A program made the translations under genes and the position numbers. From an uncultured Oscillospiraceae bacterium (GTDB lineage: Bacteria; Bacillota; Clostridia; Oscillospirales; Oscillospiraceae), in contig CATABD010000015.1 of the NCBI GenBank assembly GCA_949494735.1, positions 1-41,010 of the forward strand: a stretch of 41,010 nucleotides of DNA. The letters are read 5' to 3'. Positions within the stretch are counted from its first letter, which is position 1; each line of letters starts with the position of its first letter. This document shows positions 19,309 to 20,463 of the stretch, piece by piece. The notes beneath the pieces are model-generated. The model was not told the origin of the DNA and did not search any database. It worked only from the letters and a program-made list of their open reading frames with translations.

Positions 19309-19382
19309 TGGAGCGGGTGAGGGGAATCGAACCCCCGTGTTCAGCTTGGGAAGCTGACATTCTGCCATTGAACTACACCCGC
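19309..19382 (-). tRNA. tRNA-Gly (anticodon CCC)
   Basis: Cloverleaf on the minus strand: acceptor GCGGGTG/CACCCGC, anticodon stem TCAGC/GCTGA with loop TTCCCAA (anticodon CCC), T arm GGGGG-TTCGATT-CCCCT, discriminator T and encoded CCA. Promoter and terminator are both present. Confidence 0.95.
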
Positions 19383-19480: not shown

Positions 19481-19509
19481 TTTACAAACCGAATATTTAT
19501 TGCTATAAT
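19481..19509 (+). promoter_or_regulatory. Promoter of the 27-codon gene
   Basis: TTTACA (19481-19486), exactly 17 bases, TATAAT (19504-19509). One of the best housekeeping-type promoters in the window. Transcription should start about 25 bases before the ATG. Confidence 0.85.
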
Positions 19510-19540
19510 ACACAACAACAAAGCTAAGGAGGTGATGACA

Positions 19541-19624
19541 ATGAAGGTCCTCTTTCAGAATGTGCCCGTTGATATCGACGAGTTGATCTTCGCCGGAGAG
19601 ACTACCGTTCCCAGCGACCGCTGA
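19541..19624 (+). CDS. Small protein of 27 residues, family not recognised
   Basis: ATG at 19541 to TGA at 19622-19624. The peptide starts MKVLFQNVPVDIDELIF and ends AGETTVPSDR. It is acidic and mildly amphipathic, with no Cys, no signal peptide and no membrane segment. Evidence that it is real is in the signals: a consensus promoter, then AAGGAGGTGAT, an 11-base match to the 3' end of 16S rRNA, with 8 bases between GGAGG and the ATG, and an intrinsic terminator 34 bases after the stop. It stands alone on the plus strand between minus-strand genes. So it is not a leader peptide for a downstream gene. Function unknown; a peptide regulator, a substrate for modification or a dual-function RNA are possible. 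Confidence 0.75.
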   Translation: MKVLFQNVPVDIDELIFAGETTVPSDR

Positions 19625-19657
19625 ACGTACGGAATTTCAAAGGTTATAAGGTTTAAC

Positions 19658-19686
19658 TCGTCCTTAAAAGGGACGATTTTTATTTT
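19658..19686 (+). terminator. Terminator of the 27-codon gene
   Basis: TCGTCC (19658-19663) pairs with GGACGA (19671-19676), followed by TTTTTATTTT. The stem is short but the T tract is strong. Confidence 0.75.
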
Positions 19687-19693
19687 GCCTGAA

Positions 19694-19727
19694 GAAGGGG
19701 CGCCGCTTTTTTGAGCGGCGCCCCTTC
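19694..19727 (-). terminator. Terminator hairpin at the end of the his operon
   Basis: A perfect 14-bp stem GAAGGGGCGCCGCT / AGCGGCGCCCCTTC lies 13 bases after the BI-1 stop codon. The T run on the minus strand is weak (TTC then mixed), so the strength of the stem must do most of the work. Confidence 0.7.
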
Positions 19728-19740
19728 CATATTGCGGCTT

Positions 19741-20463
19741 TTACCTGCTGCTCCTGCCCCGCCCCAAAAAGCGAAGCAGGTAGAGAAACAGGTTAATGAA
19801 GTCCAGGTATAGCTGCAACGCGGAATAGATGGACGCTTTTTGCAACGTCGCCGCATCGCCGTAGAAGTACTCATAATTTGCCTTGATTTTCTGCACATCA
19901 TAGGCGGTAAAGCAGAGAAACACGACAATGCCCACCATGCAGATGATCCGCTCCAACGCGCTCAGATTAAGGAACATGGTCAGCAGTCCCGCAACGAGCA
20001 GGAAAATCAGGCCGCCGATGAGCAGGGGGCGAAGCTTGGACAGGTCGGTCTTGGTATAACGCCCATATAGGGCAAACGCGCCGAAAAACAGGGCGGTCAG
20101 GCCAAAAATCACAACCAGGTTGGCCACGTCATAGATCACGAAGTATGCGGAAAACACCACGCCGTTAAGGATGGAGTAAACAGCGAACAGCATCCGGGTA
20201 ACGCCCACTGGCCGTTTCAAAATACCCACAGACAAAATGAGTACCACCGCAACCTCGGCAATGAGCAGTACCACAGGGATATAGGGATTTACAAAGAGGT
20301 AAATCACCGCGCCGGTCATGGCCAAAGCCGCCGCAAGCAAAAAGGTAATCATCAGGCCCACAAACATCCAGCCAAAAGTACGGGCCACGTACTGGTTCAG
20401 TGTCAACCCCGCCTGGGCATAGCTGCTGTCGAAGTCGTATTGGTTCATATTGCGTTCTTCCAT
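19741..20463 (-). CDS. Bax inhibitor-1 (BI-1/YccA) family membrane protein
   Basis: A 240-residue protein with seven predicted membrane segments between about residues 25 and 230. It is of the transmembrane BAX inhibitor motif family, which includes B. subtilis YetJ, a pH-sensitive calcium leak channel. The conserved aspartate pair appears as FTAYDVQKI and QLYLDFINLFLYLLR. The N-terminus FDSSYAQAGLTLNQYVARTFGWMF fits bacterial members. Its ribosome binding site AAGGAG lies inside the end of hisE, 2 bases before which that gene stops. So it is the last gene of the histidine operon transcript, a role with no obvious link to histidine. Confidence 0.93.
   Translation of the reverse strand: MEERNMNQYDFDSSYAQAGLTLNQYVARTFGWMFVGLMITFLLAAALAMTGAVIYLFVNPYIPVVLLIAEVAVVLILSVGILKRPVGVTRMLFAVYSILNGVVFSAYFVIYDVANLVVIFGLTALFFGAFALYGRYTKTDLSKLRPLLIGGLIFLLVAGLLTMFLNLSALERIICMVGIVVFLCFTAYDVQKIKANYEYFYGDAATLQKASIYSALQLYLDFINLFLYLLRFLGRGRSSR

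Follow-up and report, generated by a model that had tools for sequence, protein, structure and literature searches.

Regulatory micro-proteins of bacteria are known in which a short segment docks on a partner protein, as with MciZ on FtsZ and Sda on KinA. The C-terminal tail of SSB is of the DDDIPF type, and SgrS/SgrT and SR1/SR1P are dual-function RNAs. Conserved small-protein families have reportedly been predicted from metagenomes by Sberro et al. in 2019. GMSC is a small-protein catalogue (PMC11364881), alongside which stands a further small-protein paper (PMC13376575).

We compared with these systems a 27-codon gene in the window, the whole analysed stretch of 41,010 nucleotides from an uncultured Oscillospiraceae bacterium. 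The encoded peptide resembles MciZ and Sda in being a tiny soluble cytosolic protein that would dock on a partner, a likeness of docking mode for which we claim no sequence relation; its gene differs in promoters that look sigma-A-like and not sporulation-linked. With the SSB tail it shares a short linear motif in which acidic residues are followed by hydrophobic ones, whereas the small protein lacks an SSB domain and continues for ~10 more residues up to S-[EDQ]-R. As in SgrS/SgrT and SR1/SR1P, a short ORF carries RNA-level constraint in the clade of the window copy, which in this case falls on the coding core and its own terminator and is seen in one clade only. The metagenome catalogues of Sberro et al. 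and GMSC likewise comprise short, conserved, unannotated genes of microbiome bacteria, and may hold the motif family as an unnamed cluster. In the literature searched, we found no name or function for the motif, the one string match coming from an unrelated database paper; searches linking prfB in Clostridia to a small ORF, or a conserved small protein to Oscillospir-, returned nothing. Judged from sequence, we consider it reasonably probable that the locus stands on its own and encodes a soluble acidic micro-protein with a C-terminal docking motif, and that in the window clade the mRNA can in addition fold so as to compete with the terminator.

The small gene in the window

The signals described in the sequence-only reading (promoter, 11-base Shine-Dalgarno, 27-codon frame and terminator) are all present on the plus strand at 19481–19686. 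The sigma-A-type promoter (19481–19509) matches the consensus at 11/12 positions, comprising a −35 element TTTACA (19481–19486), a 17-nt spacer and a −10 element TATAAT (19504–19509) extended by an upstream TG, with similar hexamers at the corresponding position in close relatives. A scan of 3 kb yielded three promoter-like sites of at least 9/12 compared to 2.4 expected, rendering the promoter by itself weak evidence, and it was the sole 11/12 site. The Shine-Dalgarno AAGGAGGTGAT (19526–19536) precedes the frame MKVLFQNVPVDIDELIFAGETTVPSDR (19541–19624), a member of the first family type (ending -PS[ED]R) as indicated by the frame and its relatives, with an ATG at 19541 and a TGA stop at 19622–19624. 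A longer frame opens at ATG 19451, ahead of the promoter, so that translation probably starts at the ATG behind the Shine-Dalgarno (19541). The conserved 17-residue C-terminal motif DIDELIFAGETTVPSDR occupies 19571–19621. The intrinsic terminator (19658–19686) consists of a TCGTCC-loop-GGGACGA stem (19658–19676) followed by a T-rich tract; relatives retain the stem with U-G changes, and locus L100 has it as CGCCCC/GGGGCG by eye. The 3′UTR between stop codon and terminator (19625–19657) is itself conserved in close relatives as a ACGGAATTTCAAAGGT-like sequence.

The gene is flanked upstream by a divergent tRNA-Gly(CCC) (19309–19382, minus strand), which stays with it in part of the clade, and downstream by a convergent BI-1 gene (Bax1-I, PF01027 by Pfam; 19741–20463, minus strand). 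One or both of these neighbours also flank the gene in close relatives, synteny to tRNA-Gly having been proposed earlier as a check. No plus-strand gene follows, as had been stated, the short mechanical ORFs found there lying within BI-1. A perfect inverted repeat of 14 bp, enclosing a 6-nt loop (19694–19727), lies between the small-gene terminator and the end of BI-1 and may terminate convergent transcripts.

The window peptide is acidic, without hydrophobic segment or signal, in line with the earlier view that it is not hydrophobic and unlike a type I toxin, an identity rejected on the peptide letters and on the median net charge of −4 among 149 family loci. The reported absence of cysteine holds for the window copy and not for the family, where 19/149 members contain one.

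A family with a conserved C-terminal motif

Members share a C-terminal motif of ~17 residues, D-[IVL]-D-[DE]-[LMFW]-I-[FY]-x6-P-S-[EDQ]-R-stop, which holds most of the constraint at a nearly fixed distance to the C-terminus and reaches the stop codon in nearly all members, with short extensions in a few (L006, L016, L038). The N-terminal part is variable in both length and sequence, and at minimum consists of just the start methionine. A second family type ends -[VI]S[QES]R, and the window genome carries one copy per type, the second one (G000:C148:4545-4616, minus strand) sitting just upstream of prfB. The family table comprised 177 loci, corresponding to 155 distinct genes after merging identical ones (many named contigs being the same DNA as loci with a G handle), and the expression signals were assessed in 149 non-redundant loci with flanks, all three counts including the doubtful L095. 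In these 149 loci, with start codons picked by Shine-Dalgarno and by eye, members were 18–52 residues long, the commonest lengths being 20 (31 loci), 26 (19) and 27 (17). Discarded as false were L028, L093, L094, L096 and nine phylum-level genomes outside the genus, and the gene-calling script rejected L073 and L074.

Profile searches gave no convincing match for the family in Pfam, NCBIfam (26/28 members of the first profile scanned), PHROG or PDB, the best values being 0.025 for PHROGs and 0.054 for Pfam (each with 1/61 members) and 0.43 for PDB (Max protein). In Rfam, nothing above threshold other than tRNAs was obtained at the window locus.

A single-sequence search of 400 genomes of the taxonomic family gave matches in 58 at E≤1, and 29 of 30 retrieved loci had a short frame whose end region carries the motif, L028 being the false one. 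A first profile of 28 members (L019 and L028 left out) matched 124/295 genomes of the order at E≤1, many of them weakly; the motif family is common in this order. With a second profile of 61 members (L006, L016, L017 and L029 left out), matches at E≤0.05, not every one of them inspected, were obtained in 100/148 good family genomes and 55/72 genera; in the remaining 48 genomes the gene is either dispensable or missed. Within the genus, 41/42 genomes matched, including 24/24 good ones, with two copies in 28, one in 11, three in one, four in one and none in one. At class level 18/391 genomes matched, of which four lie within the order, four are internal or doubtful matches and ten carry the family outside the order (eight in f43 and one each in f33 and f93). 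Members outside the order (L083, L084, L089, L090, L092) have a basic Lys/Arg-rich N-terminal part before the same acidic C-terminal motif. The phylum sample yielded 11/299 matches, namely the window genome itself, another from the same genus and nine more, all nine being internal segments of large proteins; five of these loci were looked at, four appearing UbiD-like and one P-type-ATPase-like by eye, with L192 alone confirmed by Pfam. A degenerate DNA pattern of the motif retrieved 87 stretches from GTDB genomes, 78 of Clostridia type and nine labelled uncultured bacterium, Firmicutes or Bacillota; 84 of the 87 are in the gene table, whereas L109, L137 and L179 carry the motif and were dropped for want of an accepted start or on score. 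A phage or plasmid origin is unsupported, as one 20-residue member gave no phage match and the window peptide one chance match to plasmids, each at E≤10.

Expression signals as strong as those of the window copy typify only part of the family. Upstream, 23/149 loci had a promoter matching at 11/12 or better, compared to 1/447 shuffles, and 60/149 had one at 9/12 or better, compared to 63/447, with a distance of 30–34 nt from −10 to start in 39 of these 60 loci. Strong terminators were detected in 71/149 loci versus 17/447 shuffles. A Shine-Dalgarno match of at least 6 nt occurred in 105/149 loci, a count biased upward because starts were chosen partly by this signal.

To characterise the coding constraint, we compared the 17-codon core in 91 distinct DNA copies, derived from 117 members. 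The third codon position was the variable one, with a mean majority fraction of 0.55 versus 0.80 and 0.83 for the other two. Synonymous changes made up 43% of the codon differences in frame versus 8.5% in each shifted plus frame, and the reverse frames gave 0.372 where third positions coincide and 0.053 and 0.066 in the other two. A subset of 60 copies had a synonymous fraction of 0.445 compared to 0.162 for column shuffles (n=100, sd 0.041, highest 0.312). These fractions are biased upward because members were picked by protein motif; the frame contrast is large despite this bias, and family-wide the frame shows the evolution of a coding sequence. The proposal of an unrecognised, self-contained small-protein gene is thus upheld by a frame conserved in relatives.

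A probable nucleotide-level constraint in the window clade

Comparison of the window copy with its close relative L002 revealed three amino-acid and no synonymous changes over 23 shared codons, unlike plain coding constraint, which points to an extra nucleotide-level constraint in the clade. The substitution check suggested earlier gives coding-type changes across the family, while synonymous change is scarce at this closest range. The low synonymous divergence coincides with the motif stretch 19571–19621. In the 244 of 300 pairs with a BI-1 synonymous divergence of 0.35–0.55, the pooled BI-1 values were 0.414 and 0.475, and those of the small gene 0.157 and 0.203; the bin of 0.2–0.35 gave 0.309 versus 0.176, and the two pairs above 0.55 gave 0.569 versus 0.385. 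For a comparison with neighbour-gene windows from BI-1, hisE, hisI and hisF (his names by eye), 22 loci were entered, 15 to 22 of which had each neighbour gene. The small gene showed 0.16–0.18 against medians of 0.40–0.43, and 0/652 overlapping 17-codon windows were as low (lowest 0.27). In contrast, the effect is absent or slight in loci linked to a metallophosphoesterase or prfB, where small gene and neighbour had values of 0.545 versus 0.508 and 0.556 versus 0.608 (metallophosphoesterase, two largest bins) and of 0.558 versus 0.397, 0.516 versus 0.502 and 0.550 versus 0.631 (prfB, three bins).

Codon usage was judged against three str-operon ORFs, by eye S12, EF-G and EF-Tu. Of the 17 window codons, eleven are in frequent or preferred use there (share at least 0.5), so codon preference may account for part of the low divergence. 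As its whole cause it is ruled out by six codons that are rare in these ORFs yet kept among loci with the same residue: TTG (3%; kept in 15/21), GGA (1%; 15/19), ACT (5%; 11/11), and GTT (18/22), AGC (22/22) and GAT (17/22) at 11% each.

Within the motif, the anti-terminator-like coding arm GACGAGTT (19577–19584, plus strand) is complementary to the 3′UTR arm AACTCGTC (19655–19662), the pairing being longer in the minimum-energy fold. The latter arm overlaps the 5′ arm of the terminator, and because both structures use it, pairing and terminator are mutually exclusive. We assessed this complementarity in 24 hand-chosen clade loci, related and not independent, from which near-duplicates (e.g. 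L178, L184, L119, L173, L031) had been dropped. When the arm was truncated at the terminator, p was ≤0.03 in 23/24 loci against whole-arm shuffles (0.065 in the other); with CTCGTC held fixed, p ranged from 0 to 0.195 and was ≤0.05 in 14/24. The 130 controls of this design included near-duplicates of clade loci and had a different arm length. A uniform design, taking 48 nt after the stop for all loci and setting five aside from the controls, weakened the clade result from 23/24 at p≤0.03 to 14/24 at p≤0.05 (median 0.035), compared to 8/125 controls (median 0.51); at p≤0.1 the counts were 21/24 and 16/125. Four of the five set-aside loci, near-duplicates of clade loci, gave p≤0.005, and L161 gave 0.82. 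Complementarity of the ORF core to the 3′UTR and one arm of the terminator is thus commoner in the window clade than elsewhere in the family. Compared with synonymously recoded ORFs, the natural pairing beat the mean in 22/24 loci, often modestly, and was worse in 2/24. Taken by itself, the window transcript shows no unusual stability (z −0.57). RNAalifold returned no compensatory double change and preferred other ORF helices over this pairing, although mutually exclusive structures, as required for a ribosome-gated terminator, are present in the sequence.

In the clade mRNA, the coding core would pair with the 3′UTR including the terminator 5′ arm, and the terminator should form mainly when a ribosome occupies the ORF, a coupling of translation to termination that sequence and thermodynamics suggest; against it, there is no plus-strand gene downstream for read-through to control. 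The extra constraint agrees with the dual-function RNA offered as an alternative in the sequence-only reading, where high expression and a regulatory role were likewise put forward as predictions. A stronger version would have the same ~51 bases act as docking motif and anti-terminator arm, with translation deciding between termination and antisense read-through into BI-1. We hold this version tentatively and as rather unlikely; if true, the small gene would be a self-gated, dual-coded micro-gene.

Neighbourhoods, alternatives and a proposed function

Among the 155 distinct genes, with neighbour Pfam names resting on one example each, we found a metallophosphoesterase upstream in 35, a same-strand prfB downstream in 25 and both in 10, a convergent BI-1 in 19, tRNA-Gly upstream in 16 and none of these four kinds in 80. 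Smaller recurrent clusters within four ORFs were foldase-like (17 loci), NYN (15) and ABC-transporter-like (13), assigned by eye except for NYN. As neighbourhoods differ, the small gene is not tied to one operon, and their shifting argues for a trans-acting product.

The prfB linkage, which includes the second copy of the window genome, would suit a leader peptide or attenuator with prfB (release factor 2) as ancestral target and the window copy as a displaced duplicate. We consider this unlikely, since 130/155 genes have no prfB within 350 bp downstream (some loci ending at contig edges), the window copy faces a convergent gene, and promoter-like hexamers precede prfB itself, by eye, in L036 and L062 at a minimum. 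An RF2-specific stop is ruled out by the mixture of TAA (73), TGA (69) and TAG (7) among 149 loci, so none has been kept overall (prfB-linked loci compared by eye). That the gene heads no single operon agrees with the earlier statement that it is unlike a leader peptide. A programmed frameshift in prfB is known in other bacteria. The prfB next to the second paralogue is uninterrupted (L201 3306–4502, minus strand; L202 3106–4227, plus strand), and prfB of the genus apparently lacks the autoregulatory frameshift.

Alternatively, the locus could mainly encode a small RNA, the peptide being secondary and the core conserved for self- or target pairing. The very low synonymous divergence in the clade, falling partly on str-operon-rare codons, and the ORF-3′UTR complementarity favour such an RNA; family-wide, however, the protein is conserved while codons vary, metallophosphoesterase- and prfB-linked loci diverge synonymously like their neighbours, and the window locus lacks an Rfam match beyond tRNAs, making it quite unlikely. 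Equally, a RiPP-like or pheromone-like precursor, from which a modified or secreted signalling peptide is released, would fit a short stand-alone gene with two paralogues, a conserved C-terminal end and the ABC-transporter-like cluster of 13 loci. We give it a slim chance, as the window peptide has no signal or hydrophobic segment, no family match was obtained, and the other recurrent clusters (foldase-like, NYN and smaller ones, their neighbours partly named) do not resemble modifying enzymes by eye. Finally, UbiD-like proteins outside the class (L188, L190, L192, L194) contain an internal DIDE[LM]IFAG near-identical to the peptide core, a likeness that is probably chance; that the gene is a relic or chance echo of such an internal decarboxylase segment (LPKDIDELIFAG), as nine identical residues (DIDELIFAG) and the Pfam assignment of L192 might suggest, is highly improbable and disfavoured by the family alignment, since other members diverge (e.g. 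DVDDMIYGS), the UbiD segments shown lack the PS[ED]R end, and the small gene has its own start, Shine-Dalgarno, promoter and terminator.

For the free-standing micro-protein that we favour, the C-terminal motif would dock on one conserved cytosolic partner and alter its activity or location, with the free carboxyl end S-[EDQ]-R probably taking part in the contact. Expression may well be constitutive, to judge from the sigma-A-type promoters. The motif is short enough for direct use as a bait for the partner, and the clade-specific second layer would be a compact example of the same bases being constrained at both protein and RNA level. A gene that is 18 to ~50 codons long, present in most sampled genomes of the taxonomic family, usually in two copies in the genus and without a name in the family libraries searched, probably has a basic function that annotation pipelines miss.
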